This document shows positions 8,931 through 42,166 of a stretch of 64,000 nucleotides of DNA, one piece after another. The notes beneath the pieces are model-generated. The model ran no database searches, had not been told where the DNA came from, and saw only the letters and a program-made list of their open reading frames with translations. The stretch comes from Nitrospira sp. (GTDB lineage Bacteria; Nitrospirota; Nitrospiria; Nitrospirales; Nitrospiraceae), in assembly GCA_024331125.1 (NCBI GenBank), contig JANDJI010000001.1:590001-654000 (forward strand), read 5' to 3'. Both the position numbers and the translations under genes were made by a program. Each line of letters starts with the position of its first letter. The stretch's first letter is position 1.

Positions 8931-10877
8931 TTAGAAAGTCGAAGACTGGGTTTTGCGGTTTGCGATCAATGTTTCGATGACGGATGGATCGGCCAGCGTC
9001 GAAGTATCTCCCAGATCATTCAGGTCGTTCGCCGCGATCTTGCGCAGAATACGGCGCATGACCTTGCCGGATCGAGTTTTGGGGAGGGCCTCGGCCCATT
9101 GAATGTGGTCGGGGGTGGCAATCGGCCCGATTTCCCCGCGCACCTGCTCGATGAGCGCCGCACGCAATGCCTCTGATGGGGCGATCTCTTTCTGCAAGAC
9201 AACGTAGGCATAGATCCCTTGCCCCTTGATCTCGTGTGGAATTCCGACGACGGAGGCTTCGGCGACGTCCGGATGTTTGGCCAATGCATTTTCCAGCTCG
9301 GCGGTTCCGAGGCGATGACCCGATACATTCAACACGTCGTCAATCCGCCCCGTAATCCAGTAATAGCCGTCTTCGTCGCGGCGGGCGCCGTCTTCCGTGT
9401 CATAGAACCCGCGAAAGCGGCCGAAATAGGTCGTGAGATAGCGCTCATGATCGCCATGGATCGTGCGCGCCAAGCCTGGCCAGGGGCGCGTCATGACCAG
9501 TCGCCCCTGGGCCGCCCCCTCCAGAATCCGGCCCTTTTCATCCACCAAGGCCGGCGCAACACCGAAGAACGGCTTGGCTACCGATCCCGGTTTCAATGGC
9601 ATGGCTCCCGCCAAGGGGGTAAGGAGCAAGCCACCGGTTTCCGTCTGCCACCAGGTATCGGCAATGGGGCATCGACCTTCCCCGACGACACGATGGAACC
9701 ATTCCCAAGCCTTGGGATCGATCGGCTCGCCCACACTGCCCAGCACTCGAAGGCTCCGGCGATGGGTTTGCTTGACCGGTTCGTTACCTTGAGCCATCAA
9801 GGCTCGGATTGCCGTCGGCGCTGTATAAAAAATATTCACCCGATATTTGTCCACCACTCGCCAGAAGCGGGAGTAATCCGGATAATGGGGCACGCCTTCG
9901 AACAGCACCGTTGTGGCACCGTTAGCCAGCGGTCCGTAGACCAGATAGGTGTGGCCGGTCACCCAACCGATATCGGCGGTGCACCAATGGATCTCCCCAT
10001 CACGATAATCAAACGCGTAACGGTGGGACACGGCGGCATAGAGGAGGTACCCGCCGGTCGTGTGGACCAAGCCCTTGGGCTTGCCGGTCGACCCGGAGGT
10101 GTACAGAATGAACAGCGGCGATTCCGCATCCATCTCCGCCGCCGGACAATCCGGCGAACTCTCGGCGACAGCCTCGTGGTACCAGACATCGCGCCTTTCG
10201 TTCCACGGAATATTTCCGCCAAGGTGCTTGACGACCAGCACCGTTTTTACATCCGGGCATTCCGCCAATGCCTGATCCGCCTTCCTTTTGTGATCGATCG
10301 TTTTGCTTCCATGCCGATAGCCGTCGGCGGTGACCACCAACTTGCACCGACTGTCCTGCACCCGATGTTTGAAGGCCTCCGATGAAAATCCGGCGAACAC
10401 CACCGAATGAATCGCGCCGATGCGAGCACAGGCCAGCATGGCAAACACAGCCTCTGGAATCATCGGCATATAGAGGCACACCCGGTCCCCCGGATTGACG
10501 CCCTGTTCCTTGAGCACGTTGGCCAAGCGGCAGACCTGTTCGTGCAGTTCGCGGTATGAAATCTTGCGACTTTGATCCGGATCATTGCCTTCCCAGATGA
10601 TCGCGACCTGGTCGGGGCGCGTCACCGTATGGCGATCGACGCAGTTGTAGCAGGCATTCAGCCGTCCGCCCTCGAACCAACGGGCAGTTCCTTCCGCAAA
10701 ATCTCCATTGAGTACCTTCTTCCACCGCCCTGTCCAACTCAGGAACGAATCGGCCTGTTCGCCCCAGAATCCTTCAGGGTCTTCGATCGAACGTTGATAC
10801 ATGTCTCGATAGCGTTGTTCGGTGATATGGGCGCGTCGGCGAAATTCCTCAGGGATAGAATAGACGATTTGGCTCAT
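8931..10877 (-). CDS. acs: Acetyl-CoA synthetase (AMP-forming)
   Basis: 648 aa from ATG 10877, with a strong GAGGAGG ribosome site just upstream; the frame is open 9 codons further but without support. The ACAS N-terminal segment is followed by the AMP-binding core with YTSGSTGKPKGLVH and the TGG...WQTETGG motif. The C-terminal lid carries KTRSGKVMRRILRK, whose first Gly-Lys context is the usual acetylation site. It converts acetate, ATP and CoA to acetyl-CoA in the cytoplasm. The acetate kinase and phosphoketolases in this window could supply the acetate. Confidence 0.96.
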   Translation of the reverse strand: MSQIVYSIPEEFRRRAHITEQRYRDMYQRSIEDPEGFWGEQADSFLSWTGRWKKVLNGDFAEGTARWFEGGRLNACYNCVDRHTVTRPDQVAIIWEGNDPDQSRKISYRELHEQVCRLANVLKEQGVNPGDRVCLYMPMIPEAVFAMLACARIGAIHSVVFAGFSSEAFKHRVQDSRCKLVVTADGYRHGSKTIDHKRKADQALAECPDVKTVLVVKHLGGNIPWNERRDVWYHEAVAESSPDCPAAEMDAESPLFILYTSGSTGKPKGLVHTTGGYLLYAAVSHRYAFDYRDGEIHWCTADIGWVTGHTYLVYGPLANGATTVLFEGVPHYPDYSRFWRVVDKYRVNIFYTAPTAIRALMAQGNEPVKQTHRRSLRVLGSVGEPIDPKAWEWFHRVVGEGRCPIADTWWQTETGGLLLTPLAGAMPLKPGSVAKPFFGVAPALVDEKGRILEGAAQGRLVMTRPWPGLARTIHGDHERYLTTYFGRFRGFYDTEDGARRDEDGYYWITGRIDDVLNVSGHRLGTAELENALAKHPDVAEASVVGIPHEIKGQGIYAYVVLQKEIAPSEALRAALIEQVRGEIGPIATPDHIQWAEALPKTRSGKVMRRILRKIAANDLNDLGDTSTLADPSVIETLIANRKTQSSTF

Positions 10878-11005
10878 GCGTCTCCTCCTCAATAGCCCGG
10901 ACATCCTTCGTTATGACAGCTGTGAAACAGCGACCACCGCCGCGCTCCTTCCGTCCAGTTTTTCGTCTCATGAACGGCAGCAGAAAGTTCCCTTGTCCCA
11001 GTGGC

Positions 11006-15293: not shown

Positions 15294-16415
15294 CTACCGG
15301 GTCGCCGCCTCTTTCGTGACCGACCAAATCACCCGTCCCGTTTTATCGCGCAGCCTCATTGAGGGTTCACCCTCCGGATCCAGGGAGATACTAGCCCGCT
15401 GTTTGTTGGACTCATCAAGTAAATCGAGGGCCATTTCATTGTTCTCGCGCAGGCCGAGAAAGGCGCTGTGCTTTCCTTTCTTGCTGCTCAGAAGCAAACT
15501 TGGTCGATTCTCCCCCTCAATACTCAGGAAGACGCCGTCGTCGCCGGTCCGGTCGATCAAGGAAAGAAGCGGTCGATCTCGAAGAATCAGGTTGGGACGC
15601 CCGGCCTCATCGAGATTCAAGCCGGCCCGCAGGGCATCCTTGTCGTCGTACATCGCCAACAACGGTCCCTCTTTCTTGGGCAAGGCTTCGACGGAGAGGC
15701 TGACCAATCGACGGCCTTCTTTATCCTTCATGGTCAACCGCGGCTCGCCGGTGTCCAGAATTTCGAGCCGGGCGCGAGATTGGCCTTCGCCGTTGATCAG
15801 CTCGAGCCCCTCCATGGTCAGACCGGCCCGTGGTTTTCCTCCTTGGTACAACACCAACCCCGCCTTCTCCTCAACCGCCGATAAGACGGCGTTCACGTGA
15901 CCTTTTTTGTCCTCGAGAAAGACGCGCGGCGCGCCATCCACAAACATAAGTGTGGCCTCGGCGGTCCCTTCCTTGCCCTTGAGACGCAACTCCGGCCAGC
16001 CTTCCGGCGAAAGACCGAGGCTCGCCAACACTCTCCCGTCCCGCTCCATGGTCAAATCCAGTCTCGGCTCGCCCTTGCTCAACACCGCGAGCCTCACTCG
16101 CGGATCGCCGTCCTTGCTATTCAGACGTACTTCGGCCCCGTCTTCCTTGGTCAGCGCGAGTGTCAGCCGTGACTTGCCGGACTTGTCCGCAAGATCAAGC
16201 CGCGGTTCTCCCTCTTCCGAGACGGCAAGTTGCGCGCGAGCCTTGCCGTCCCTGTCCGTCACGATCAACCTTTCAGTCGCGATCATCCTCCTGTCCGGCG
16301 CGGCTTCCTGCGCAACGACCGGATCGGTCAAGAGGATCCGATTCCCGATCACACCCCCGATCAAACCGGCCACCAACGCCCACACCACGACGCTTCCGGC
16401 CCCCTGTTGTGCCAT
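15294..16415 (-). CDS. Membrane-anchored protein of about a dozen 22-24-residue beta-type repeats
   Basis: 373 aa. One N-terminal hydrophobic segment (residues about 9-27, signal or anchor) is followed by roughly twelve degenerate repeats to residue 365. Each has the form GEPRLDLxDKxGKxRLxLxL with period 22-24 (for example GEPRLDLADKSGKSRLTL, GEPRLDLTMERDGRVLASL, GEPRLTMKDKEGRRLVSL, GEPSMRLRDKTGRVIWSV). Alternating hydrophobic residues and turn-forming GEP/DKxGK suggest a beta-solenoid or stacked hairpins in the periplasm. No catalytic motif or cysteine was seen. It is convergent with the porins. Function unknown. Confidence 0.75.
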   Translation of the reverse strand: MAQQGAGSVVVWALVAGLIGGVIGNRILLTDPVVAQEAAPDRRMIATERLIVTDRDGKARAQLAVSEEGEPRLDLADKSGKSRLTLALTKEDGAEVRLNSKDGDPRVRLAVLSKGEPRLDLTMERDGRVLASLGLSPEGWPELRLKGKEGTAEATLMFVDGAPRVFLEDKKGHVNAVLSAVEEKAGLVLYQGGKPRAGLTMEGLELINGEGQSRARLEILDTGEPRLTMKDKEGRRLVSLSVEALPKKEGPLLAMYDDKDALRAGLNLDEAGRPNLILRDRPLLSLIDRTGDDGVFLSIEGENRPSLLLSSKKGKHSAFLGLRENNEMALDLLDESNKQRASISLDPEGEPSMRLRDKTGRVIWSVTKEAATR

Positions 16416-16733: not shown

Positions 16734-18095
16734 TCATGACGATTCGCCGCGAAGAGCCAATTGGCCTTGTCTGGCGTAGTCGATCGCCTCGCCCAGAATG
16801 CGCGCCGCCTCCTGCGGCGCGTGGAATCCCATCGAATTTTCCGCCTCGACGAAGTCCACCATGAACTGGGCTTTCCGCTGGAGCGCCTGGGCGGTGCTCA
16901 CCCCCTGGTCGCTTCGGCCCGCCGTTCGGGCCGCGGCCAGATCACGGATCAGCGCAATCAGCGCGTCCATGGCGCGATTGCGCAGCTCGAAGGTCCGCTG
17001 CTGAATCGTTTCCGCGCGATCTTTCAATTCGGCCTCCGACCATTTATGGCAGGTTTGGCAGGCCCGGTTGATGTTGAGCAGGGGACTGCGGACATGGTGA
17101 TCGCTGATCTTCATCGCGCCTTCGCGCTTGTACGGCATGTGACAATCGGCGCAGGCGACGCCCGAGCGAGCATGGATACCCTGATTCCACATTTCAAATT
17201 CCGGATGCTGCGCTTTCAGCACGGGGGCGCCGGTTTCGGCGTGCGTCCAATCGGAAAACCGCGTCTCATCATAATAGGCGAGCATATCGTCGACGCGCAG
17301 ACCTTTGGCCCAGGGAAAGACCAATCGTTTCTCCGGTCCCTGAAAATAATATTCGACGTGGCATTGGCCGCAGACGAACGAGCGCATCTCCTGTCTGGTC
17401 GCCATCCGGTTGACGTCGTAATTCTTGGCACCCTCGTGGGCCTTCAAAGCCCGCAATCCTTCGATAAAGGCCGGGCGCGTCACACGGAGCTGCATGGTGT
17501 CGGGATGGTGGCAATCGATGCAGGTGACGGGATGGCTCACGTGCGGCCGCGCCTCGGCGTAGGGCATGGCATTGAGCTTAGCAAACCCGGCAAAGATATC
17601 TCCGTCACCCAGTCGCTTCATCGCCGTATAGACGGACGAGTGGCACTGGAGACAGGTCCCAGGCTGCGGAGTGACGACCTGGCGCTCGGTGTACGTCTGA
17701 TCCTCCAGCATATAGGCGTGGCCCCGCTCCTCCCGAAAATCATGGGCGAAGGCGTAGCCGGCCCACATGGTTTTCAGCCTGGGGTCTTCTTCGAGTCTCG
17801 ATTGCGCGACCACGGAGCGTGGATCGGCCTCGGTCGGGGTCCGTGGAATCGCCTCGCTGCCTCCGAACCGAGTCCGCACTTGATCCACGGTTCTGGTGTA
17901 GGCGTCGTACTGGAACGGGAAATTCTTCCCCCACAGGGCCGGGTCGTCGGTGTCGTCGGTCAATTCGACGACACGGAAGAACAGGGTCTTCTCTTCCTGC
18001 TTGCGCTGAAAGATCGTCACGAGCAAGGCGGTCGCCGCCACGGTCGCGATCGTCGCCAGCAGAAGCGCCACGATGAGTTTCCCTGTCACATTCAT
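16734..18095 (-). CDS. nrfA: Ammonia-forming cytochrome c nitrite reductase, catalytic pentaheme subunit
   Basis: 453 aa from ATG 18095. An N-terminal signal/anchor helix (about 7-28) is followed by five heme-binding motifs: CLQCH 148-152, CIDCH 192-196, CGQCH 242-246, CADCH 315-319, CQTCH 346-350. NrfA-specific residues are present: R124 in ERGHAY, CGQCHVEYYF with the catalytic tyrosine, and KAQHPEFEMW with the catalytic histidine H297 and calcium-site K/Q. The active-site heme motif is CxxCH, not the CxxCK (lysine-ligated) of E. coli. The enzyme reduces nitrite to ammonium with six electrons in the periplasm. It follows nrfH by 28 bp. Confidence 0.93.
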   Translation of the reverse strand: MNVTGKLIVALLLATIATVAATALLVTIFQRKQEEKTLFFRVVELTDDTDDPALWGKNFPFQYDAYTRTVDQVRTRFGGSEAIPRTPTEADPRSVVAQSRLEEDPRLKTMWAGYAFAHDFREERGHAYMLEDQTYTERQVVTPQPGTCLQCHSSVYTAMKRLGDGDIFAGFAKLNAMPYAEARPHVSHPVTCIDCHHPDTMQLRVTRPAFIEGLRALKAHEGAKNYDVNRMATRQEMRSFVCGQCHVEYYFQGPEKRLVFPWAKGLRVDDMLAYYDETRFSDWTHAETGAPVLKAQHPEFEMWNQGIHARSGVACADCHMPYKREGAMKISDHHVRSPLLNINRACQTCHKWSEAELKDRAETIQQRTFELRNRAMDALIALIRDLAAARTAGRSDQGVSTAQALQRKAQFMVDFVEAENSMGFHAPQEAARILGEAIDYARQGQLALRGESS

Positions 18096-18123
18096 TGTTC
18101 CCTCTTCATTGTTCCCTCGCAAG

Positions 18124-18600
18124 TTACTGATGCCCGACGTCCCCATGACATCGAAGACAGGGCAAGTCTTCCCGACCGACACCGGTCACGGTCATTGCCT
18201 GCACGATGGCTGCATGACATTTCAGACAAGCCCGTTCAGTCAATTGGTGCATGGGCGGTGTAATTTGGATTTCATCGGGGAAATAGCCGGTCGTAAAGGC
18301 GTAGGCGTGCAGAAAGCCGTACTTCGCCTTGGCGACGTATTTTTCAACGGGGCCGTCCGGCGTATGACAATCGTTGCACACGGCCACCGACCGATGACTG
18401 CCCTTCACCCAACCGGCGTATTGCTCACGCATCACGTGACAGTTCACGCAGGCTTCCGGCTTGTCGGTCAAATACGACCCGCCGCGGGCATAGACGAACG
18501 TATAGACGCCGATACCGGTGAATACGCCGAGCGTGAGGACCACTGCCCAGGGCAACAGCGGCAACGATGGCCTCCGAGCCGGCCACCCGTTACGGATCAC
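18124..18600 (-). CDS. nrfH: Cytochrome c nitrite reductase small subunit, tetraheme quinol dehydrogenase
   Basis: 158 aa. It starts at GTG 18600, which overlaps the phosphoketolase stop by 4 bp (GTGA) and has a GGAGG ribosome site 7 nt upstream. One N-terminal transmembrane helix (about 14-36) anchors a NapC/NirT-type domain with four hemes: CVNCH 51-55, CNDCH 75-79, CLKCH 125-129, CLRCH 148-152. The CVNCHVM arrangement supplies the methionine typical of NrfH heme 1. It takes electrons from membrane quinol and passes them to NrfA. Confidence 0.93.
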   Translation of the reverse strand: MIRNGWPARRPSLPLLPWAVVLTLGVFTGIGVYTFVYARGGSYLTDKPEACVNCHVMREQYAGWVKGSHRSVAVCNDCHTPDGPVEKYVAKAKYGFLHAYAFTTGYFPDEIQITPPMHQLTERACLKCHAAIVQAMTVTGVGREDLPCLRCHGDVGHQ

Positions 18601-21080
18601 ACCACGACCTCCGGGAGAATGACACCGTGCGGACTGCGTGTGCCGTCGAGCGCCTGCCGTTCCTCGGCGCTCAACAGGTCCGCCTCGGAGAGTTGCAAAA
18701 GCCGCGCAACCTCGCGAATGCAATGGGCCCAGCTTGAACGGTTGACGAACAACATGCCCGGCGTGCTAAGCGTGCCACCGTGATTGATGTAGCCCAATCC
18801 CACTGTTGCAGGGCCCGTGTGCAGGGGACCAAGAACGCCGAGGATCGTTTCCGGTCTGGTATGGGTCACAAAGAGCCGAGCCGGCACATCGGTCGGGAAG
18901 AGACGGGCCATCACTTCCGCCGAGGCACCATATGCCCGTTCGTGCTCGGAGCGAGGCGCCCGGAATCGTCCCGGCTCGAGCACATAGACGACGGTATGAG
19001 GGATCATTCCTTCCGCCAACCGGCGGGACGCCTGGAGCACCTCCATCAACTGGTATGAACCGATGGCGGCCAGGATGATGCGCGCCCGCTCATGCTGATA
19101 GCCGGTCCAATCCAGCCGTAGGCCCCCGTCCTTGACCAACGTTCGCGCTTCGCTTGGCGTGAACAGATCAGGGATGACGTCCGCCTTGGGCACGACCAAC
19201 GTCCAGATCTGGCCGTGCGTCTTGTAGAGCCGCTCCATGACGGCGGCCGCGCCGTTGAAATCAGGAGGAAACAGGACCCGGGACACGTGCGACGGTTCGC
19301 CGAGCATCGCTTCCGCCATACTGGGATCTTGATGCGACTGTTCGTTCTTGCCGTTCTCCCACGTATGGGAGGTCAAAATCAGCGGCATGGAGAGCCACCG
19401 TTGCGGGCGGCCCGCTTCCAGACAGTGGTTGGCGAAGATGATCTCCTGCCGCACCGCGCCATGCATCTTGCTCCCGAAAGCCTCGTAGGTATGTACCAGA
19501 TTGATGCCGCCCTTGTTGGCCAGTGCGGCGGACACCACCGCCTCTTCGTTCAGCGCGGTGATAACCGCCCCGTCCACGGATTCCGGCACCGCCGGCTCCG
19601 GATCCGTGACGCGAAACTTGAGCCGCGCCAACGTCGAAACCAGTCGGTTCGACAACATTTCGTCAGGGTTGCCGACACGCGGGCGCAGGCGGGGATTGGC
19701 ATCCAAAATGGCGACGAACGTGCGATCGATCGCCGTCATCGGAGAGGCCGTGGCCCAGTCTTCCAAGTTGCGTCGCGCGTCCTCGGAGACCTGCCGGAAC
19801 GGCGGCTCCGGGATGGCAGGCTCCGGCACGTCACGGTGAGCCAACACGTGATCCCGTTCGCGCGCGCGGCCGGATGCCTCGTGTCGTTGAAAATGCGGGA
19901 TCGCCTCGACCAGTTCGTTCGACGACACCCAGAGACGTCTCGCCCCTTCGTTGAACAGATCCGCTGCGCGGTTCTCGACGCGCGGATTGGCCATCAAAGG
20001 GAGATTGTGAGCCAAGTTGGTCCCCTCGCCGGGGAAACCGGCGCCTTTCGGCGCAATGGCGATTCCATAGGGGAGTGGAACAGGGTACCGGCCTTTCCCT
20101 TCCTTGACCGATTCGGCGGCGGCTTCGAGCCGATGTTCCATCTCGATGATCGCCCACAGAAAGGCGGCGGGATCGCGGCCGTCGAAGATGATCGGATCGA
20201 ATCCGTTTAATCTGAGATGCTCGCTGAACCAAGCCGCTCCCCCCTGCTGCGACATCGTCGTCCGCTGATCGATCCGCCGGCCGTTCTTGATCATGATCGG
20301 TGTCACCAAGCCGCAATCCTCGACCCGCCACCAGCGAGGGGCCCAATCACTGCCTCGCTGTTCTTCAAAGGCTCCATCGGAGAGAAACGCCACCAGCCGC
20401 TCGCCGGGTAGCGGCATGTGGACATACTGCAACTCGGCGAACCCCAGATAGCCTCCTTCCGACAGCCCGCCGGCCGTATGGACGTTGACATGGCTTCCCA
20501 AGGGCGAATCCTGCCTCCCATCGTCGCGCAGTCGATACGAGTAAAAGTCGCGCACGTACCGGCTCAGCCCTTCGTCCGTGACGGAATACCGTGCCGCATG
20601 GGCCTCTGTCATGTTGCCGACGAGCAGATTCAACGAGTCGATCGCGGCGACACAGTGTCCTTGTCCCATCAGCCATCCGCGCGTGTGGCCGGTGACCACG
20701 TTGGCGGCAAGATAGCCGGCATAGGCCGGCACCATGTTCAGCGCGCCGCCGGTGTGGCCTTCAGGACGGACCTTGAAGTCCTCGGTATCGAGCGGCCTTC
20801 CGTCGAGATAGACATTTCGAGCATACGTCTGATGAACGACCAACCACAGACCGGCACTGGTCAGCCGATCAAGCGCCATCAGGAGATCATAGAACGCGAC
20901 CGCATCTCCCGTCGTGCCGCGACTTGCCAGGCGGCGCGCCAACTCATGGACACGGACCTGCGTCTCATCACTGTGCTGGATGACTCCATAGCCCTCGGCC
21001 CAACGGGCGAACGACGGGTCATCGTTACGACATTGCGCGGCGCGCTCCGTCTCAGACTGTGCGGCTTTCATTTCCTTCAC
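18597..21080 (-). CDS. Divergent phosphoketolase-family (TPP-dependent) enzyme
   Basis: 827 aa from GTG 21080, which has a GGAGG ribosome site and overlaps the ackA stop by GTGA. Homology to Xfp runs along the whole length: EGHTGGALNMVPAYAGYL, a degenerate TPP/metal motif SDGAFEEQRGSDWAP, HTWENGKNEQSHQDPSM (compare [17 protein letters not shown] in the canonical copy at 42757) and the C-terminal GYINHGGTLSTPGM. It clearly differs from the canonical phosphoketolase in this window. Coupling to acetate kinase supports cleavage of a sugar phosphate to acetyl phosphate, but substrate and even reaction need testing; some relatives carry misleading names such as xylulose 5-phosphate 3-epimerase. Confidence 0.85.
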   Translation of the reverse strand: MKEMKAAQSETERAAQCRNDDPSFARWAEGYGVIQHSDETQVRVHELARRLASRGTTGDAVAFYDLLMALDRLTSAGLWLVVHQTYARNVYLDGRPLDTEDFKVRPEGHTGGALNMVPAYAGYLAANVVTGHTRGWLMGQGHCVAAIDSLNLLVGNMTEAHAARYSVTDEGLSRYVRDFYSYRLRDDGRQDSPLGSHVNVHTAGGLSEGGYLGFAELQYVHMPLPGERLVAFLSDGAFEEQRGSDWAPRWWRVEDCGLVTPIMIKNGRRIDQRTTMSQQGGAAWFSEHLRLNGFDPIIFDGRDPAAFLWAIIEMEHRLEAAAESVKEGKGRYPVPLPYGIAIAPKGAGFPGEGTNLAHNLPLMANPRVENRAADLFNEGARRLWVSSNELVEAIPHFQRHEASGRARERDHVLAHRDVPEPAIPEPPFRQVSEDARRNLEDWATASPMTAIDRTFVAILDANPRLRPRVGNPDEMLSNRLVSTLARLKFRVTDPEPAVPESVDGAVITALNEEAVVSAALANKGGINLVHTYEAFGSKMHGAVRQEIIFANHCLEAGRPQRWLSMPLILTSHTWENGKNEQSHQDPSMAEAMLGEPSHVSRVLFPPDFNGAAAVMERLYKTHGQIWTLVVPKADVIPDLFTPSEARTLVKDGGLRLDWTGYQHERARIILAAIGSYQLMEVLQASRRLAEGMIPHTVVYVLEPGRFRAPRSEHERAYGASAEVMARLFPTDVPARLFVTHTRPETILGVLGPLHTGPATVGLGYINHGGTLSTPGMLFVNRSSWAHCIREVARLLQLSEADLLSAEERQALDGTRSPHGVILPEVVV

Positions 21081-22333
21081 GGTTGTCCTCCTTTCCAGTG
21101 TTGCAGACAGCGCAGGGCTTCCCGCGCAATCCAAGTTTCTTCGTCAACGGCCGTGACGTAGGCTGGCAACGTCGCCTCATCCGGGCTGATACAGACGGCG
21201 GAGCCGGCCTGGAGTGTGACCGCGGCGCTGTTTTTTTGTTCGTCAAGCCGGAGGCCGCACCAGTCCATCCCTCCGCAGATTCGAGCGCGGATCAGCGGCG
21301 ATCGCTCGCCGATCCCTCCGCTGAACAGAACGGCGTCGGCGCCTCCCAGCACCGCCAAATAGGCGCCGAGATATTTGCGGACCCGGTAGCAGAAGACGGC
21401 GACCGCCAGTTCGGCGCGCTGATCGCCCAGCTCCCTGGCGTTTAAGATCTCCCGCATGTCCGACCACCGGCCGGACAAACCCAACAGCCCGGACCGTTCA
21501 TTCAACAGGCGATCGATCTGCTCCACCGTGAGCTCCGTATGGCGTGCCAGGTACCCCACCAGCCCCGTGTCGCAGTCGCCGGCTCTGGTTCCCATCACCA
21601 ATCCTTCCATCGGGGTAAATCCCATGGACGTATCGATCGAACACCCGTCTCGGATAGCCGTCGCCGAACACCCGCTCCCCAGGTGCACCGTGATCAGCCT
21701 GGTTCCCTCGAGCGACCGTCCCACGGTCTCGGCGTAGGCGGCGGCGGACGAGGCATGTGCGATGCCGTGGAACCCATAGCGCCGCACACCATATTTCGTC
21801 GCCCATTCCTCCGGAATCGCGTACGTCGCCGCCTGGTCCGGAATCGTCCGATGAAAGGCGGTGTCGAAGACCGCGACCATCGGCACGTCCGTCCCGGAGA
21901 CGGCGCGAGCCGCTTCGTGCGCCGCGTTGATCGTCGCGAGGCACGCCCCGTTGTGCAGCGGTGCCAAGTCCGTCACGAGCGCGATTTTTTTTAAGACTGT
22001 CTCGTCAATCACGACCGATTCTCGAAACCACGCCCCGCCGTGCACGACACGGTGTCCCATGGCATCCACCGATTGCGGACCCAGCGATTCGAAGATCCAC
22101 TCGACAGCACGCCGATGATCGGAGACATCCCGTTTGCGAATCGGTTCTCGGGTTCCGTCACCGGTCATCATCAGGGTCGCCGCGCCGCCGATCCGCTCGA
22201 CCATCCCGCGGAACAGGGGAATTCCTTTGCCTGCTGCACCTGGCTGACCACTCGCCCCCCTCTTTTCGGCCGGATACCGGATCAACAGAAACTTAAGCGA
22301 CGAGCTTCCGCTGTTGAACACCAGGATGTTCAT
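21077..22333 (-). CDS. ackA: Acetate kinase
   Basis: 418 aa from ATG 22333. The ASKHA-fold signatures are intact: N-terminal VFNSGSSSLK, GHRVVHGG, YGFHGIAHAS, HLGSGCSATA, DTSMGFTPMEG and the C-terminal GGIGERSPLIRARIC. It interconverts acetyl phosphate + ADP and acetate + ATP in the cytoplasm. Its stop overlaps the GTG of the divergent phosphoketolase by 4 bp, so the acetyl-phosphate maker and user are co-translated. The gap to atpG upstream is only 93 bp, so readthrough from the ATPase operon is possible. Confidence 0.97.
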   Translation of the reverse strand: MNILVFNSGSSSLKFLLIRYPAEKRGASGQPGAAGKGIPLFRGMVERIGGAATLMMTGDGTREPIRKRDVSDHRRAVEWIFESLGPQSVDAMGHRVVHGGAWFRESVVIDETVLKKIALVTDLAPLHNGACLATINAAHEAARAVSGTDVPMVAVFDTAFHRTIPDQAATYAIPEEWATKYGVRRYGFHGIAHASSAAAYAETVGRSLEGTRLITVHLGSGCSATAIRDGCSIDTSMGFTPMEGLVMGTRAGDCDTGLVGYLARHTELTVEQIDRLLNERSGLLGLSGRWSDMREILNARELGDQRAELAVAVFCYRVRKYLGAYLAVLGGADAVLFSGGIGERSPLIRARICGGMDWCGLRLDEQKNSAAVTLQAGSAVCISPDEATLPAYVTAVDEETWIAREALRCLQHWKGGQP

Positions 22334-33762: not shown

Positions 33763-34650
33763 CTAGGCCCCCGTCTGAACGATCGCCGGCGGCGCCTGTC
33801 CCTCTCCCCAGTACAGAGTCCGATGTGGGAACGGAATCTCGATTCCCTTGGCATCGAACGTCTTCTTGATCCGTCGATTCATCTCGCGCCCGACCCGCCA
33901 TTGTTTGATGGGCATGGTCTTGATCCGACACCTGATGATCACGGCGGAATCGTCGAAGCGATCGACGCCGAGCATTTCCAGCGGTTCCAGAATGTCCTCC
34001 GCATACGAGGGGTCGGCCCGCAGCTCGTCCGCGATTTCAACCAGCACCGCCATCACGCGATCGACGTCTTCCTTGTAGGCGACTCCGACATCAAACACGT
34101 AAAACGAAAAGCCCTTCGTCATGTTCTTGACCCGATCCACGATCCCGTTCGGAACCACGTGCACGCTTCCCGACACGTCGCGCAATCTGATCGATCGTAG
34201 TTTGACTTCCTCGACGAGGCCGCTGACGCCGGCGATCTCCACGACGTCGCCCACGGCGATGGAATCTTCCAGGAGGATAAAAAATCCCGAAATGACATCC
34301 TTCACCAAACTCTGGGCGCCGAACCCGATCGCCAACCCGCCCAAGCCGGCGGCGGCGAGAAGCGGTTTGAGATCGATGCCGATTTCCGAGAGGATCATCA
34401 TGGTCCCGACGGCGACGATGAACACACGGGCCACATCCCGAAGCACCTGGGTCAGGGTTTCGGCCCTCTGCCGCTGCGCCGGAGTCGGCAACGCCCCTTC
34501 GAGCAGTCGCCGGACGCGGGCCAAGGCCTGCCTGACAATTGTCAGCAACAGCACCATCCCGATACCGATGAGCACCACCCGAATTCCCGAGCCCATTCCC
34601 CATTGCATCGATCGTTCAACGAACTGTGCCAGCCAGGTTTCCTGTGTCAT
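33763..34650 (-). CDS. MscS-family mechanosensitive channel
   Basis: 295 aa. Three N-terminal membrane helices (to about residue 130) end in the pore-lining helix AAGLGGLAIGFGAQSLVKDVISG, followed by the MscS beta domain (DVVEIAGVSGLVEEVKLRSIRLRDVSGSVHVVPNG) and an alpha/beta C-terminus. It releases solutes on hypo-osmotic shock from the inner membrane. It is convergent with the response regulator and sits beside two cation antiporters. Confidence 0.93.
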   Translation of the reverse strand: MTQETWLAQFVERSMQWGMGSGIRVVLIGIGMVLLLTIVRQALARVRRLLEGALPTPAQRQRAETLTQVLRDVARVFIVAVGTMMILSEIGIDLKPLLAAAGLGGLAIGFGAQSLVKDVISGFFILLEDSIAVGDVVEIAGVSGLVEEVKLRSIRLRDVSGSVHVVPNGIVDRVKNMTKGFSFYVFDVGVAYKEDVDRVMAVLVEIADELRADPSYAEDILEPLEMLGVDRFDDSAVIIRCRIKTMPIKQWRVGREMNRRIKKTFDAKGIEIPFPHRTLYWGEGQAPPAIVQTGA

Positions 34651-34704: not shown

Positions 34705-35934
34705 CTATCCCTTTGGCCCTCCTACCACCCGACTGATGGTCAACCCCTGGACCAGGATGGAAAAGACCACCACGACATAGGTGATCGTCACGACGGCATC
34801 CCGCTCCGGACCGGAGGGCAAGGAGAGGGCCAGCGCGACGGAAATGCCGCCGCGCAATCCGCCCCAGGTCAAAATCTTCACCGTCTTGTCGCTGAACTCG
34901 CGGACTAGACTAAACCCTCCTACCTGGATGAGCACGGTGGCCCAACGCGCCGCCAGCACCAACGGCACGGCAACGAGTCCCGCAATCAGATAGGGCGGAT
35001 GAAAACTCAGCGCGAGCACCTCCAGGCCGATCAGCACGAACAAGACGGCGTTCAACAGCTCGTCCAACAACTCCCAAAAACTGTCGAGGCGTTCCCTTGT
35101 CGTCTCGGACATGGCCCACTGCCGCCCGTAGTTCCCAATCAGCAACCCCGCCACGACCACCGCGATCGGACCGGAAGTGTGCAGCAGATCAGCCAGCGCG
35201 AAACCGCCCATGACCAACGCCAAGGTAATAAGAATCTCCACCTGGTAATTGTCCACGGAACGGAGCATCCGATAGGCGACATAGCCCAGAGCCAGTCCCA
35301 ACGCCGCTCCGCCGATCGCCTCCTCCACGAACAACCACACAATGTCGGCGGCGTGAACCGTTTCTCTTGGCAGGAGATTCAAGAGAACCAGAAAGATCAC
35401 CACGCCGACGCCGTCGTTGAAGAGTGACTCTCCGACGATCTTCATCTCCAGCGCCTTCGGCAGGCGGGCCTGACGGAGCACCCCCATGACGGCGATCGGA
35501 TCGGTGGGCGAGATCAAGGCGCCGAACAACAGGCAATAGAGAAAGGGCAACGGCAGGCCGACCCAGTCGAACACCACGGAACCCAGTAGGCCGATGATCG
35601 CGCTCGAGAGCAGCGTCCCGACGGTCGCCAATGTGCCGATCACCCACTTGAGATCGAGCAGTTCCTCCAATTTGACGTGCAGCGCGCCGGCGAACAGCAA
35701 AAACCCCAACATCCCGTGCATCAACGTTTCGTTGAAATCAACGGCACCGATGAGCCGCTGCGCTTCGGTCCCGACGCCGAGCCCCAATTTTCCCAGTGCC
35801 AGCAGACTCAAGGAAAACACCAGCGCCACCGCCATCAGTCCGATGGTCATCGGCAGTTTGAGCAGCCGATGGTTCACATAGCCGAACAGCGCCGCCAGGC
35901 AAATCAGGATCGTGAGCGTGTAAATCAACGGCAC
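34705..35934 (-). CDS. CPA1 Na+/H+ antiporter (NhaP type)
   Basis: 409 aa, about 12 helices from residue 1. The family signature SPTDPIAVMGVLRQARLPKALEMKIVGESLFNDGVGVVIF includes the ion-binding aspartates (PTDP and FNDG). It exchanges Na+ (or K+) for H+ across the inner membrane. It has no long cytoplasmic tail, unlike the next antiporter. A Na+ exit route next to an N-type ATPase island is compatible with Na+ cycling, but the ion is inferred only from the family. Confidence 0.92.
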   Translation of the reverse strand: MPLIYTLTILICLAALFGYVNHRLLKLPMTIGLMAVALVFSLSLLALGKLGLGVGTEAQRLIGAVDFNETLMHGMLGFLLFAGALHVKLEELLDLKWVIGTLATVGTLLSSAIIGLLGSVVFDWVGLPLPFLYCLLFGALISPTDPIAVMGVLRQARLPKALEMKIVGESLFNDGVGVVIFLVLLNLLPRETVHAADIVWLFVEEAIGGAALGLALGYVAYRMLRSVDNYQVEILITLALVMGGFALADLLHTSGPIAVVVAGLLIGNYGRQWAMSETTRERLDSFWELLDELLNAVLFVLIGLEVLALSFHPPYLIAGLVAVPLVLAARWATVLIQVGGFSLVREFSDKTVKILTWGGLRGGISVALALSLPSGPERDAVVTITYVVVVFSILVQGLTISRVVGGPKG

Positions 35935-36354
35935 GGCTCATACCTCTTCTTCTGACAAGGGAACACTCTGTCGTTTATGACTTACGCCCTCGAGGCCGGC
36001 GCCGCCGCCAGTTTTCCATCGCGACGGGGACGCGCAAGATTCCCGATCCCGTTCTCTTTCCTCACAAGGGCCGTCCGAACCGGTGCCAACGCGCAAGTAC
36101 GAATCATAAGGCCTGCCGGATTCGAGACATGCAGTCGCTGTTCAATGTTGTGATGAGCGATCCGACTGACCGACTCTTCGTTGAGCGTCATCCGTACGGT
36201 TCTCATCCGTTTTCCGATGCACGAATGGCTCTGCCGGGAAACGTTCTTAGCGGCATCGTGTGGGGAATGCAAGCTCTCGGCTCAATCGGGCGCGATCAGA
36301 GCAAATTGGAACGATGCCTTGCGGTGCCAGGCGTGGATGCGTCGGGTGTTGGTC
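35935..36354. other. Intergenic region between two antiporters, no supported gene
   Basis: 420 bp. Open frames on both strands (35982-36272 minus, 36129-36380 plus) show no family match. The minus-strand frame from ATG 36206 begins MRTVRMTLNEESV, like ribbon-helix-helix antitoxins, but the resemblance stops there. It probably holds the promoter of the NhaP-type antiporter. Confidence 0.5.
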
Positions 36355-37827
36355 CTATCGGTCTTGCCCGGCGCCCTTGAGACTATCGCGAAGCCGGGCG
36401 GACGACTCGTGATCGGCGGACACCAAAAGCACATCACCGGCCTCCAGCACGGTGCCGCCGTCAGGAACAAAACACCGGCCTTTCCTTTCAATCATGATGA
36501 TTAACGCCTCCTTGGGGCAACCAAGATCAAGGAGCCGCTTGCCGACCGCAGCGGATGTGGGGACAATCGTCATCTCGATCAGCCCGTTTTTGAGATCGAT
36601 CGGCCTGTCGGAGACGGCGGCGGTCCCGACGGATCGTTCCATGGGCGCATCGACCTGGAGCCAGCGGGCGACCAGAGGAATGGATGTGCCTTGGAGCAGC
36701 ACGGAAGTCAAGACGATGAAGAACACGAGGTTGAACATCATCGGAGCCTGCGGAATGCCGGCCAAGAGCGGGAAGGTGGCGAGAATGATCGGCACGGCTC
36801 CCCGCAGGCCGACCCAGGCGATCATGGTCTTTTCCCTGACGGTGAGCTTCGAGAACGCCAAGGTGAAAAAGACGGCGACGGGCCTGGCGCACACCATCAA
36901 GAACAACGCGAAGAAGAGTCCGGTCCCCGCAACCGACAGGAGTTGCGAGGGAAAGACCTGCAGGCCGAGCACCAGAAACATCGCAATCTGCATCAACCAG
37001 GCCAGCCCGTCATGAAACCGCAACAGACTGCGTTTATGGAGAAAATCGCGGCTCCCCATGATCAGCCCGGCCAAATAGACCGCCAGAAATCCGTTTCCTC
37101 CCAGCCAGGCGCTGCCGCTGTAAGTGAGGAGGACCAAGGACAGGGTAAGCACCGGATAGAGCCCCTCATATTCCAATCGCAATCGATTGACCAGCTCCAC
37201 CATCAGTTTGCCGGTCCCATACCCGATTGCCGCGCCGACGACCATCTGTCGCGCGAACATGGGAATCAGATCGATCACCGACGTCGACGCCCCCGTCATC
37301 AAGCTGATCAGCCCGATCGTGAGAAACACCGCCATCGGATCGTTGCTGCCCGATTCGAGTTCGAGCAACGGCTTCAACGGATCGCGCAGCCTGACCAACC
37401 GCGATCGCATCACGGCGAACACGGCGGCGGCGTCGGTGGAGGAGACAATGGCGCCGATCAGCAACCCTTCCAACCATGAAAACCCGACGACCGTCGTGGC
37501 GAACAGACCGATCAGGCCGGCCGTGATCGCCACACCGACGGTGGACAGCGCCACGCCTCGCCCAAGCTGCGATCGAACGGACGCCCACTCGGTATCCAAT
37601 CCGCCGGCGAACAAAATGAACGCCAGCGCGACGACCCCGATCGATTGCGCCAGGAAGGGATTGTCAAAGTGAATGCCGCCGGGACCGTCGGAGCCGGCCA
37701 GCATGCCGATGGCCAAAAACAGCAACAGCGCCGGAACTCCCAATCGACCCGACGCCGTGCTGGACAGGACGCTCAGCAACAACAAGACGGACGCGCCGAG
37801 CAAAAGCTGTTCGATCGTGACGTCCAT
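36355..37827 (-). CDS. CPA1-type cation/proton antiporter with TrkA-C domain (NhaP2/CvrA-like)
   Basis: 490 aa. About 12 helices carry [16 protein letters not shown] and [17 protein letters not shown] (ion-site SSTDA and SND). Residues about 400-485 form a TrkA-C (RCK_C) domain ([24 protein letters not shown]...[12 protein letters not shown]), typical of K+/H+ antiporters gated by nucleotides or ions. It probably exports K+ or Na+ and helps volume and pH control together with the MscS channel nearby. Confidence 0.92.
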
Positions 37828-37859
37828 CGGCCGCTGCCCCCCGTCCTACTGAATTCTCC

Positions 37860-38753
37860 CTAGCAATCACTTTCGTCGAGCAGCGTTTCGGCGGACCTGA
37901 CCACCAGCACCGGGCACCCGGCCCGTCTCAAGACTCCTTCCGCGACACCGCCCAACATGAGGCGGGGCAGCCCCCGGCGACCCTGCGTGCCGACCACCAC
38001 GATGTCCGCTTCCCATCGGCCGGCCTCTTCCACGATCGCCTCGACCGGATGGCCCACTCTGCAGATCCCTTCTGCCTGAACACCTCGGCCTCGAAGAGCC
38101 TGAACCAGCCGATCCAATCGCCGGCGCCCATGCTGTCCGTCATCCTCCATCGAGTGGGCATGCACGACCAGGACCATGGCATTCGCAAGTTGAGCCAACC
38201 GTTCCGCAACCCGCTGGGCCTGCCGGGCGCAGGATGAGAAATCGGTGCCCAACACGATCCGGCTCAATTTCACGCGCGCAGTCTGCCGGGCGGCGTCCCC
38301 CGCCACCCCCCCGTGGACGGCCAACACCGGGCAATCCGCCCGGCGGACCAACGTCTGCGCGGTGCTGCCCAGACGCAACCGATCCCATCCGGTTCGCCCC
38401 TCGGTGCCCATGACCAGCAACTTGGCCCGCTCCTGCCGGAGACGGCGCAGGATACAGTCGTCCGGCACACCGAAATCGACGACCGGCTCGGCCTCGACGC
38501 CCGCTTCTCTTGCCAGCCGAGCCAAGCGTCCCAGTTCGAGCAGGGCCGATGTCCGCATCATGCGCGCGTAGCGAGTATCCGGAGGCAGGCCTTCGTCATC
38601 GGGCAGCAGTTTAATGACATGGAGCAGGTGCAGGCGAGTATTGAACAGCCGGGCCAACGCCAGTCCGTACGTGAAGGCCCGTCGCGCCGGCCGTTGGAAA
38701 TCCGTCGGGAGCAAAATGCAAGGGACGCTGTGTTTTGATCGCGGCATGGTCAA
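37860..38753 (-). CDS. Tandem-domain universal stress protein
   Basis: 297 aa with two UspA domains (about 8-145 and 155-290). Domain 1 has the ATP-binding GTEGRTGWDRLRLGSTA pattern (G-2x-G-9x-GS). Domain 2 has GTQGRRGLPRLMLGGVA, where GG replaces GS, so it may bind nucleotide less well. Such cytoplasmic proteins are induced in starvation or energy stress. It is 32 bp upstream of the K+/H+ antiporter on the same strand. Confidence 0.92.
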   Translation of the reverse strand: MTMPRSKHSVPCILLPTDFQRPARRAFTYGLALARLFNTRLHLLHVIKLLPDDEGLPPDTRYARMMRTSALLELGRLARLAREAGVEAEPVVDFGVPDDCILRRLRQERAKLLVMGTEGRTGWDRLRLGSTAQTLVRRADCPVLAVHGGVAGDAARQTARVKLSRIVLGTDFSSCARQAQRVAERLAQLANAMVLVVHAHSMEDDGQHGRRRLDRLVQALRGRGVQAEGICRVGHPVEAIVEEAGRWEADIVVVGTQGRRGLPRLMLGGVAEGVLRRAGCPVLVVRSAETLLDESDC

Positions 38754-38805
38754 AGAGAAAAGCCCTGAAATGGAACAGCAGGAGACTCTGGCTTCTTGAC
38801 CTCGC

Positions 38806-40194
38806 TCATACTTCCTTCAAAGCCTTCACGATTGCTTGTACCATGTCCCGCGCATCCCCGAACAGCATGATCGTCCTGTCGTTCGCAAATAGGGGGTTGG
38901 GAATCCCTGCAAAGCCCGGACTCAGGCTTCGCTTAATGACGACGACCGCCGCGGACTTGTCCACATCGAGGATCGGCATGCCGGCGATCGGGCTGGCTGC
39001 GTCGGCCCGCGCGATCGGATTCACCACGTCGTTGGCGCCGATCACCAAGGCGACATCCGTCCGATCGAACGACGCGTTGCTTTCATCGAGATCTTTCAGC
39101 AGCTCGTAGGGCACGTTGGCCTCCGCCAACAGGACGTTCATATGGCCCGGCATGCGGCCGGCGACCGGATGGACGGCGAATTCCACCTCGATACCGCGAG
39201 AGCGCAACAGGTCCGCGAGCTGCGCCACGGCATGTTGCGCCTGAGAAACGGCCATCCCGAATCCCGGCACGATCACAACCCGGCGCGCGGCGTCAAACAA
39301 GAGCGCGACTTCCTCCGGTGAGCCGGCCTTGACCCTCCCCTTGTAGACGTCCTCGGTCTTTCCGTCGCGGGGCTCGGACGGCGTGATCCCCGCCATCACG
39401 TCGATGAGCGACCGGTTCATGGCCCGGCACATGATTTGCGTGAGGATGAAGCCGGACGCGCCCACAAGCGAACCGGCGATGATGAGCACGTTGTTGTCCA
39501 GCACAAATCCCGTCGCCGACGCCGCCAGGCCGGAACAAGAATTGAGCAGCGCGATGACGACCGGCATGTCCGCCCCGCCCACCGGCAGGACGAGCAAGAG
39601 CCCAAGCAACGACGCGGCGGCGACAACGAGCCAATAGGCCGCATACGGCGCCGGCATAAACACCAGCCAGAGTCCGAGTCCTCCGGCCCCCGCCGCCAAG
39701 GCAAACGTAACGACACGCTGGCCGGGAACCCGAACCGACTCATCCGTGATCAGTTCCTGCAACTTGGCGAAAGCGATCACACTCCCCCAGAACGTCACGG
39801 CGCCGACGATCCCGGAAATCACCGCGGCCACGGTGAAATGATGGAGCGCGGAAACCTCCGTATTTCGGACCTCCAACAGGCCGACGCCTGCCACAAAGAC
39901 GGATGCGCCGCCGCCCAGCCCGTTGAGCAACGCCACCAACTGGGGCATGGCGGTCATGCGGATCTTCACCGCCAAGGTCGCGCCGATGATGGCTCCCAGA
40001 GCCAACACGACGGCAATGGACTGGACGTTCACGATGCGCCGGTCGAGCAACGTCAGCACCACCGCGATCAACATGCCCGTGGCGCCCATCACGTTGCCGC
40101 GCGGCGCACTCCTCGGATGCGCCAGCCCCTTCAGCCCGGCGATAAAGAGGGCCGAGGCTACCAGATAGCCCAGGTTGATCAAGGCCGAATTCAT
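38806..40194 (-). CDS. pntB: NAD(P) transhydrogenase beta subunit
   Basis: 462 aa. Eight to nine N-terminal helices lead to the NADP(H)-binding domain III with VIVPGFGMAVSQAQH and the LVIGANDVVNP motif. With PntA it couples hydride transfer from NADH to NADP+ to proton entry, supplying NADPH. Its start overlaps the stop of pntAb by 4 bp (ATGA). Confidence 0.95.
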   Translation of the reverse strand: MNSALINLGYLVASALFIAGLKGLAHPRSAPRGNVMGATGMLIAVVLTLLDRRIVNVQSIAVVLALGAIIGATLAVKIRMTAMPQLVALLNGLGGGASVFVAGVGLLEVRNTEVSALHHFTVAAVISGIVGAVTFWGSVIAFAKLQELITDESVRVPGQRVVTFALAAGAGGLGLWLVFMPAPYAAYWLVVAAASLLGLLLVLPVGGADMPVVIALLNSCSGLAASATGFVLDNNVLIIAGSLVGASGFILTQIMCRAMNRSLIDVMAGITPSEPRDGKTEDVYKGRVKAGSPEEVALLFDAARRVVIVPGFGMAVSQAQHAVAQLADLLRSRGIEVEFAVHPVAGRMPGHMNVLLAEANVPYELLKDLDESNASFDRTDVALVIGANDVVNPIARADAASPIAGMPILDVDKSAAVVVIKRSLSPGFAGIPNPLFANDRTIMLFGDARDMVQAIVKALKEV

Positions 40195-40484
40195 CGGTCG
40201 TGTCGCGATTGCCTTTGAAACATCCTCAGCATCCGATGGGTCACGAGAAAACCACCCACGACGTTGATCGTTGCGAAGAGCAGGGCGGCCAACCCCAACC
40301 AGTTCGAGACAGGGTCCCGCTCCGATCCGGCCGCCAAGAGGGCACCGACGATCGTAATACCAGAGATGGCATTGGCGCCCGACATGAGGGGTGTATGGAG
40401 CGTGGGCGGCACCTTGGTGATGATCTCAAAGCCGGCGAACAACGCCAGCACGAACACCGTCAAGCCCGCGATAAAGGTATCCAT
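40191..40484 (-). CDS. pntAb: NAD(P) transhydrogenase alpha-2 (membrane) subunit
   Basis: 97 aa, three to four helices. VPPTLHTPLMSGANAISGITIVG is the conserved PntA membrane segment. This is the separately encoded C-terminal part of the alpha subunit, as in three-gene pnt operons. It is 148 bp downstream of pntAa and overlaps pntB by 4 bp. Confidence 0.94.
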   Translation of the reverse strand: MDTFIAGLTVFVLALFAGFEIITKVPPTLHTPLMSGANAISGITIVGALLAAGSERDPVSNWLGLAALLFATINVVGGFLVTHRMLRMFQRQSRHDR

Positions 40485-40632
40485 CCTGTTCTCCTCCGGC
40501 TTCTCCTCTATTCAAGTCTCGCCGAATCTCACCGTCCCAATCTTCTCGCCGAATCTCACCGGACCTCAACAGACCGGAGACGGCGTTTGTCGGCGAACAG
40601 CGTTCCGCCAGACCGCGATTCGTCGTTTTTTC

Positions 40633-41808
40633 TCAGCCGGCTTCCAGCAACCTGTTCACCCGTTGATGCACGACGCCGCCGCTTCGCGCAACGAGGATCT
40701 CCTTCACGATTTCATCATCGACCGTCGGACCAATGTCGACTTCCTCGCCAAGCCGAGGCAGCAGATGCTGCAACAGATTGACGAGATTTTTCCCGTAGAG
40801 CCGGCTTGCGTGCGTGGGAACGAGAGCGGGCAAATTGGCGGGGCCCAGCACGGTCACGCCACGATAGACCACGGTCTTGTCCGGGCTGGTCACTTCGCAA
40901 TTCCCCCCTCGGTCCGCGGCGGCGTCCACGATCACGGCGCCTCGACTCATCCGCTTCATCATCTCTTCCGTGATCAGAATCGGTGCCCTACGACCCGGCA
41001 CCGAGGCCGTCGTAATGACCACGTCGCTGGCCTCGACCACCGGAGCCAATCCAATCCGTTGCCGCCTGTAGGTGTCCTCGTCCAACGCCTTGGCATAGCC
41101 GCTCGCCCCTTCCACGTCGCGCGCATCGATCGGAAACTCGACGACCTTGGCCCCGACGCTGCGAATGTCTTCCTTCGCGCTCGGCCGCACGTCGTACGCC
41201 GAAACGGCCGCCCCCAAGCGACGAGCCGTCGCGATGGCCTGCAGACCGGCCACCCCCGCGCCGATCACCAACACGCGGGCCGGCGGGATCGTTCCAGCCG
41301 CGGTCGTGAGCATTGGAAACAATTTGGACGACGCCCCGGCCGCCAGCAACGCCGCCTTGTATCCGGCCACCGTGGCCAGAGATGACAGCACGTCCATGCT
41401 CTGTGCGCGCGAGATCCTCGGCATCAGCTCCAATGCCAACAAGGTGGCTCCCGTCTCCGCTAACTCCCGTGAGGCGTGAGGACTTCCCCAAGGATCGGCC
41501 AATCCGACGACGATGTGATTAGGCCTGAGCAGGGCCAGATCATCACGGCCCTTCTCCCGATTGGCGCCGGGCGTTCTCACCTGAAGGAGAATGCGGGCCA
41601 TATCGTACAACTCCTCACGGCCCGCGACCACACGCGCTCCCACCGATCGATACGCGTCATCCTCGAACCCTGCCGCCTCCCCCGCGCCGGATTCGATCGA
41701 TACCTCACACCCCATCTTCACAAGCAGGGGAACATGTGCGGGCACCAGCGCGACCAGCGTCTCACCCGGAGCGGTTTCCTTCGGCACGCCGATCTGTATT
41801 GTGCTCAT
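40633..41808 (-). CDS. pntAa: NAD(P) transhydrogenase alpha-1 (NAD-binding) subunit
   Basis: 391 aa from ATG 41808 (MSTIQIGVPKETAPGE); 48 further open codons upstream have no homology. It is an alanine-dehydrogenase-like fold with the NAD site VLVIGAGVAGLQAIATARRLGAAVSAYDVRP and the RxxAPxL region. Soluble domain I, which binds NAD(H) on the cytoplasmic face. It ends GVVHQRVNRLLEAG without membrane helices, consistent with the split alpha subunit. Confidence 0.95.
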   Translation of the reverse strand: MSTIQIGVPKETAPGETLVALVPAHVPLLVKMGCEVSIESGAGEAAGFEDDAYRSVGARVVAGREELYDMARILLQVRTPGANREKGRDDLALLRPNHIVVGLADPWGSPHASRELAETGATLLALELMPRISRAQSMDVLSSLATVAGYKAALLAAGASSKLFPMLTTAAGTIPPARVLVIGAGVAGLQAIATARRLGAAVSAYDVRPSAKEDIRSVGAKVVEFPIDARDVEGASGYAKALDEDTYRRQRIGLAPVVEASDVVITTASVPGRRAPILITEEMMKRMSRGAVIVDAAADRGGNCEVTSPDKTVVYRGVTVLGPANLPALVPTHASRLYGKNLVNLLQHLLPRLGEEVDIGPTVDDEIVKEILVARSGGVVHQRVNRLLEAG

Positions 41809-42166
41809 CGTCTTCCCGGATTTCCCATGCATCATCACGACGTCGTGTCTTTCAATGCCGGCGAATAGCCTCCGCTCACCGCCTGAACTGACAGCGAAGC
41901 GATACAGCCAAGTGAACCATCTTGCGATTACTTGCAGATGGGATGCCATCACGAACGGTTTCTCTCATTCTATTGATAGCCTTGCCGAACAGCCCTGCCA
42001 TAGGGGCCGCCCCAGACGAACGACCTAGTAGCAAGAGATATTTTGGAACAGACCGATCAAGCGGTCTGTAGCCAATTACCACAGGTGAGAGGCTCTTTCG
42101 ACAGGCTCCTTGTCGGCGACCGGCCGAGCATGAGAATTGGGGACACAAAAGGTGTACACTGTGGGT
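41809..42166. promoter_or_regulatory. Divergent pntA/cupredoxin promoter region with a hairpin
   Basis: 358 bp without a supported gene. A perfect 8-bp inverted repeat ACAGACCG/CGGTCTGT with a 6-nt loop lies at 42048-42069, about 100 bp upstream of the cupredoxin gene. It has no T run, so it is more likely an operator or leader hairpin than a terminator. No clear -35/-10 pair could be picked with confidence. Confidence 0.4.

Follow-up and report, generated by a model that had tools for sequence, protein, structure and literature searches.

An acetate kinase, divergent phosphoketolase and NrfHA gene string in a hot-spring comammox Nitrospira

The gene string and its surroundings

The window, the whole 64,000-nucleotide stretch analysed here, contains four intact genes encoding acetate kinase (ackA), a divergent phosphoketolase-family protein (xfpD) and the two components of an ammonia-forming nitrite reductase, nrfH and nrfA (Table 1). 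Their layout is operon-like: all lie on the same strand, 4-nt GTGA overlaps join ackA to xfpD and xfpD to nrfH, and 28 bp separate nrfH from nrfA. The coordinates and junctions given in a first-pass annotation proved exact to the base, and Pfam and NCBIfam matches bear out its naming of ackA, the phosphoketolase family, nrfH and nrfA. Such an overlap is in itself ordinary, occurring at 3 of the 11 junctions of the 12-gene run. Promoter and terminator scans of the run stayed at chance level; terminator-like sites show no excess inside it, and none lies in the atpG–ackA gap. The gaps that precede ackA and the N-type ATPase genes contain no FNR-type box (at least 8 of 10 positions), and FNR/FixK-like matches of at least 8 of 10 positions are scattered at many places through the window. 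A common transcript from ackA to nrfA, or from atpD to nrfA, is suggested by the shared strand, the overlaps and the lack of terminator excess.

Table 1. Features of the window (positions of the 64,000-nucleotide stretch)
Feature	Position	Strand	Details
Acetyl-CoA synthetase	8931-10904	minus	TIGR02188 972 bits, over cut-off
373-aa ORF	15294-16415	minus	downstream of nrfA; many 'RLxLxDKxGKxR'-type repeats
nrfA (pentaheme ammonia-forming nitrite reductase, 453 aa)	18095-16734	minus	PF02335 462 bits
nrfH (tetraheme quinol dehydrogenase of nitrite reductase, 158 aa)	18600-18124	minus	GTG start; TIGR03153
xfpD stop / nrfH start, 4-nt GTGA overlap	18597-18600	minus	GGAGG 7 nt upstream
xfpD (divergent phosphoketolase-family, 827 aa)	21080-18597	minus	GTG start; XFP/XFP_N/XFP_C
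ackA stop / xfpD start, 4-nt GTGA overlap	21077-21080	minus	TGA stop; GGAGG just upstream
ackA (acetate kinase, 418 aa)	22333-21077	minus	Pfam PF00871 386 bits; TIGR00016
Probable N-type (alternate F1Fo) ATPase operon, complete	28843-22427	minus	ends 93 bp before ackA
ATPase gamma	23380-22427	minus	
ATPase alpha	24837-23329	minus	
ATPase b/delta	25591-24800	minus	
ATPase c	25944-25678	minus	
ATPase a	26630-25947	minus	
ATPase small subunits	27341-26576	minus	
ATPase beta	28843-27338	minus	
xfp2 (canonical phosphoketolase, 828 aa)	45243-42757	minus	XFP_N 604, XFP 289, XFP_C 325 bits
Alpha-glucan (glycogen) phosphorylase	45247-47001	minus	PF00343 105 bits; 3 bp upstream of xfp2

The genome carrying the window is a Nitrospira MAG of 2.95 Mb in 9 contigs with 88.9% completeness, so absences from it are soft. 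It contains amoA and is therefore a comammox genome; the host is a thermophilic hot-spring Nitrospira that takes ammonia all the way to nitrate. The nearest named relative among the matches listed is the hot-spring MAG JZ-4_Bin198 (99%).

AckA scores 391.7 bits against TIGR00016 (cut-off 293.4), which identifies it as an acetate kinase, and it is the only acetate kinase match in the genome. A true phosphotransacetylase (Pta) was not found in the genome, which yielded a 29-bit partial match only; since Pta is the only other route to acetyl phosphate, a phosphoketolase is the likely source of the AckA substrate. Recapture of acetate could possibly be performed by the acetyl-CoA synthetase encoded in the window.

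NrfH (TIGR03153, 154.6 bits against a cut-off of 134.2) carries four CxxCH motifs at 51, 75, 125 and 148. NrfA is a pentaheme protein with five CxxCH motifs, matched by Cytochrom_C552 and by solved NrfA structures (2vr0/2j7a, 1e-68). Its heme-1 motif is CLQCH, of the CXXCH type and not CXXCK; NrfAs of the CXXCH type are known, so its membership in the family stands. The occurrence of NrfAH and DNRA in hot-spring comammox bacteria is already published: one study reports nrfAH with DNRA inferred, and weak expression of nrfA in one or more hot-spring comammox MAGs (PMC10284858). The genes and the type of organism are the same as here and DNRA has been proposed for them, and the available parts of the reports on comammox NrfHA (N. 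inopinata, hot-spring MAGs; PMC10284858, PMC12342949) contain no mention of a link to ackA-xfpD and an N-type ATPase operon. The repeat-bearing ORF downstream of nrfA has no match in Pfam or NCBIfam.

Upstream of ackA lies the probable N-type ATPase operon. For beta, b and gamma the top or nearly top matches are to alternate F1F0 ATPase models (TIGR03305/03321/03323), yet these matches remain below the 'exception' cut-offs of the models. The c-subunit reads ESLAIY and lacks the Gln/Glu32 ligand, with Met at the Gln32 place. Such a pattern is read as proton-moving in a Nitrospirales genome survey, which describes a matching c-subunit for the Nitrospiraceae N-type ATPase (ES-L..Y, no E32 ligand, predicted H+) (PMC12342949); the window operon differs in being continued on the same strand by ackA-xfpD-nrfHA. 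By the ligand rule of that survey, a Na+ role is unlikely (PMC12342949).

The window holds a second phosphoketolase, the canonical xfp2, next to a glycogen phosphorylase gene and without its own ackA; neither this gene nor the ATPase operon was remarked on in the first-pass annotation. Canonical xfp and ackA are neighbours in most Nitrospira; in contrast to these pairs, the sole ackA of the present genome is paired with the divergent gene. The bioenergetics-rich stretch between the two phosphoketolases (34705-41952) encodes two Na+/H+ antiporters and NAD(P) transhydrogenase subunits, together with a mechanosensitive channel (33763-34650), all on the strand of the string.

The divergent phosphoketolase and its clade

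XfpD is the most unusual part of the string. It exceeds the Pfam gathering scores of all three phosphoketolase domains (XFP_N 51.5/23.7, XFP 134.4/22, XFP_C 28.1/23.4 bits) and falls below all NCBIfam phosphoketolase cut-offs (best 142.8 bits versus 962). Phosphoketolases of the PDB are matched at 1e-28, and at 6e-43 in a profile search. The AlphaFold model (pLDDT 84) finds solved phosphoketolases as its best Foldseek matches (TM about 0.7, E about 1e-33), followed by transketolases. In the tree and the alignment, XfpD falls with full support into a separate clade, designated clade D, and the canonical window copy into clade C; the branch separating the clades has reached saturation and a quick method was used for the tree, so only the split between the two clades is claimed.

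Comparison with known phosphoketolases (B. longum 3ai7, L. lactis 6gua, cyanobacterial 8io8) demonstrates three Pfam domains and a fold in common with XfpD at about 21% identity. Catalytic residues H109, H142, H197, H358, H583 and E512 correspond to His64, His97, His142, His320, His553 and Glu479 of the B. longum enzyme. The five histidines are kept in 86/86 clade D sequences, single gaps aside, as are the equivalents of the ThDP glutamate Glu479, Ser440, Asn549, Lys300 and Lys605. The RQDHN motif, invariant in phosphoketolases, reads EN(G/A/S)KN in all 86 clade D sequences. N576, K578, E575 and R268 replace Q546, H548, R545 and Y217 throughout the clade, and Tyr217-Lys218 of phosphoketolases reads Arg-Arg (Q546N, H548K, R545E, Y217R and K218R in XfpD). 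Q546 and H548 are present in 24/24 canonical phosphoketolases, and XfpD lacks the QDHN motif. The first-pass annotation had called this protein divergent, a term that the analysis supports.

The kept fold and catalytic residues suggest that XfpD likely acts on a ketose phosphate, and its donor pocket probably differs from the canonical one. With Gln546 and His548 lost, the donor may be neither xylulose-5-P nor fructose-6-P. Decay of a canonical copy as the origin of xfpD is ruled out by its separate clade and by purifying selection; the kept catalytic residues and the presence of both copies in the window also speak against it. In RefSeq, proteins of clade D go under the name 'xylulose 5-phosphate 3-epimerase' (14/15 plasmid matches). 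The fold and the residues indicate a phosphoketolase instead, and the name is probably a propagated misannotation; a literature search with this phrase returned no title or abstract bearing on the clade D family.

Distribution within and outside Nitrospira

The first-pass annotation named absence of the gene order from all relatives as grounds for abandoning its reading. The order N-ATPase gamma-ackA-xfpD-nrfH-nrfA, with both GTGA junctions, occurs in the window and in two other hot-spring comammox MAGs, JZ-4_Bin198 and SRBZ-2_Bin184, the latter having two copies of the string on two contigs (relatives' loci L037, L038, L041). dN/dS of 0.10-0.27 per gene compared (Nei-Gojobori) points to purifying selection on all four genes. 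The kept order and junctions in these loci, taken with this selection, indicate that the string is more than a chance arrangement.

In N. moscoviensis (L043:10001-13000), xfpD is followed, after a GTGA overlap, by an nrfH that breaks off behind its second heme motif and passes into stress-protein-like sequence; the genome has no nrfA. The truncated gene is a relic of nrfHA lost at the xfpD joint. Other Nitrospira genomes carry the parts in different combinations. The atpG-ackA joint, the same in L037, L038, L041 and G009, is kept in G009 without xfpD or nrfHA; in G030 xfpD is followed 12 kb on by a PEP-synthase-like gene, nrfH and nrfA; in G027 xfpD is followed by a PEP-synthase-like gene. G009 and G030 thus indicate that the parts recombine within Nitrospira, as modules that tend to occur together. 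Among 79 Nitrospira genomes xfpD is found in 7 and nrfA in 4, all of the latter being among the 7 (Fisher p 2e-5; 0.003 when the three hot-spring relatives count as one).

Scanning of GTDB genomes for xfpD relatives confirmed at least 477 loci. Neighbourhoods were counted for the best 80 of these, 74 of them outside Nitrospira, with kinship unweighted and ORF calls at distant loci mechanical. Searching for the four-gene order succeeded in close Nitrospira relatives but not beyond the genus: nrfA, nrfH and N-ATPase genes lie near xfpD in 0/74 non-Nitrospira loci (best 80 of at least 477), which rules out a widespread four-gene order. In contrast, the association of ackA with xfpD is widespread outside Nitrospira (best 80 of at least 477 loci), ackA lying within the retrieved flanks at 43/74 loci. 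Genes near xfpD in the same 74 loci (best 80 of at least 477) also encode PRPP-synthase-like (41), AMP-phosphorylase-like (39) and beta-CASP nuclease (36) proteins, and 42 of the 46 full-flank loci among the best 80 of at least 477 carry either ackA or the phosphorylase/PRPP-synthase cluster.

The nuclease, phosphorylase, PRPP-synthase-like and xfpD genes are consecutive, with many 4-nt overlaps, in Lysobacteraceae, Paracoccus and others, plasmid records included. This Pseudomonadota run of beta-CASP nuclease, AMP-phosphorylase-like, PRPP-synthase-like and clade D genes is seen, for example, in L110:6140-12409, L094, L080, L088 and L149, and its AMP-phosphorylase-like protein matches TIGR02645 over the cut-off. 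By its gene content the run looks like a route from RNA to acetyl phosphate for energy; no published description of such a run was found.

A different, near-identical island comprises genes for DUF3141, ackA, cyclopropane synthase, xfpD, type II GAPDH and a UbiB-like kinase (L065, L066, L067, L068, L070, L073, L084, L101). Its hosts are Aquabacterium, Hydrogenophaga, Pigmentiphaga, Achromobacter and Pseudomonas rhodesiae, and a similar set is carried by the Acidovorax plasmid p1-T1 (L151). It is probably a mobile stress island.

Possible function at low oxygen

AckA and XfpD likely make ATP from sugar phosphate without oxygen, judging from the families to which they belong. XfpD, a ThDP enzyme of the phosphoketolase fold, would cleave a ketose phosphate to acetyl phosphate, which AckA converts into acetate and ATP. 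The ATP could be spent by the N-type ATPase, presumed to act in the pumping direction, to keep up the proton gradient. NrfHA would oxidise quinol with nitrite and so recycle quinone, the nitrite being supplied by reversed nitrite oxidoreductase or by the environment, and acetate may be taken back by acetyl-CoA synthetase.

The first-pass annotation went further and held ATP formation to be stoichiometrically tied to nitrite. Phosphoketolase and acetate kinase together are redox-neutral, with no NADH or quinol made, NrfHA draws its electrons from the quinol pool, and translational coupling governs expression, not flux. The ATP-forming branch can therefore run without an electron sink and does not depend on nitrite; stoichiometric coupling is rejected on redox grounds. 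A link between ATP and nitrite by shared expression fits these facts. The run can thus be viewed, with roughly even confidence, as a set of co-expressed low-oxygen maintenance functions in thermophilic comammox Nitrospira.

A low-oxygen role, also put forward in the first-pass annotation, is the likeliest theme in view of the Bradyrhizobium data, the distribution of clade D in denitrifiers and the earlier publication inferring DNRA in hot-spring comammox bacteria. In Bradyrhizobium the operon bll2518-bll2517, where a phosphoketolase gene adjoins an acetate kinase gene as in the window, is FixK2-dependent and has a FixK2 box, and its phosphoketolase is induced by microoxia; a separate phosphorylase/PRPP-synthase/MBL operon is also FixK2-dependent, and genes of both operons are up under microoxia (PMC9104804, PMC6515984).

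It is possible, though on the whole unlikely, that XfpD cleaves another, perhaps bis-phosphorylated, ketose, that clade D serves ribose salvage from RNA or NMP under energy stress, and that Nitrospira carries a transplanted terminal part of that pathway. The invariance of N576, K578, R268 and E575 in the clade would suit this reading, as would the frequent coupling by 4-nt overlaps to the nuclease, phosphorylase and PRPP-synthase-like genes in Pseudomonadota and the PRPP-synthase-like gene within 300 bp of xfpD at 24/74 non-Nitrospira loci (best 80 of at least 477). However, xfpD of the window is paired with ackA only, and a relative of NMP phosphorylase was not found in the window genome, 34 other Nitrospira genomes having weak partial matches at most. 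Only the ackA-xfpD end of the route is therefore present in Nitrospira, and operation of the RNA/NMP branch in the window organism was rejected.

Alternatively, NrfHA could serve nitrite assimilation or detoxification, its place behind ackA-xfpD being due to an accidental insertion that one thermophilic lineage has retained. The restriction of the four-gene order to close relatives (74 non-Nitrospira loci among the best 80 of at least 477) and the position of nrfHA behind a PEP-synthase-like gene in G030 agree with this explanation, and a role of NrfAH in N assimilation has been put forward for N. inopinata (cited in PMC12342949). The explanation is nevertheless rather improbable, as nrfA and xfpD co-occur in two separate Nitrospira lineages, N. 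moscoviensis retains the nrfH relic behind xfpD, and a siroheme NIR_SIR protein, which could be a sulfite reductase, is encoded elsewhere in the genome.

Conversion of glycogen-derived sugar phosphate into ATP by XfpD and AckA with nitrite as an obligate electron sink, the reading of the first-pass annotation, is very improbable given the textbook redox neutrality of the branch; a stored-sugar source for the window xfpD is not supported, since glycogen phosphorylase there adjoins xfp2, although glycogen phosphorylase or glucoamylase-type genes do lie near xfpD in G030 and N. moscoviensis.

A broader and quite speculative picture is doubtful as a whole. Clade D may be a separate ThDP family that produces acetyl phosphate, its substrate being an unusual and perhaps bisphosphorylated pentose. 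Denitrifying Pseudomonadota would then run a route from RNA through NMP, ribose bisphosphate and acetyl phosphate to ATP when oxygen runs out; comammox Nitrospira would have acquired the final two steps of this route and combined them with nitrite ammonification and a proton pump driven by ATP.

The locus draws attention to a large group of phosphoketolase-like proteins, with at least 477 loci, whose active site is altered and whose database name is apparently incorrect; their genes often neighbour those of enzymes that might degrade RNA to yield energy. For the organism itself, it offers an account of how a nitrifier regarded as a strict aerobe could maintain its energy charge when hot-spring sediment is anoxic.
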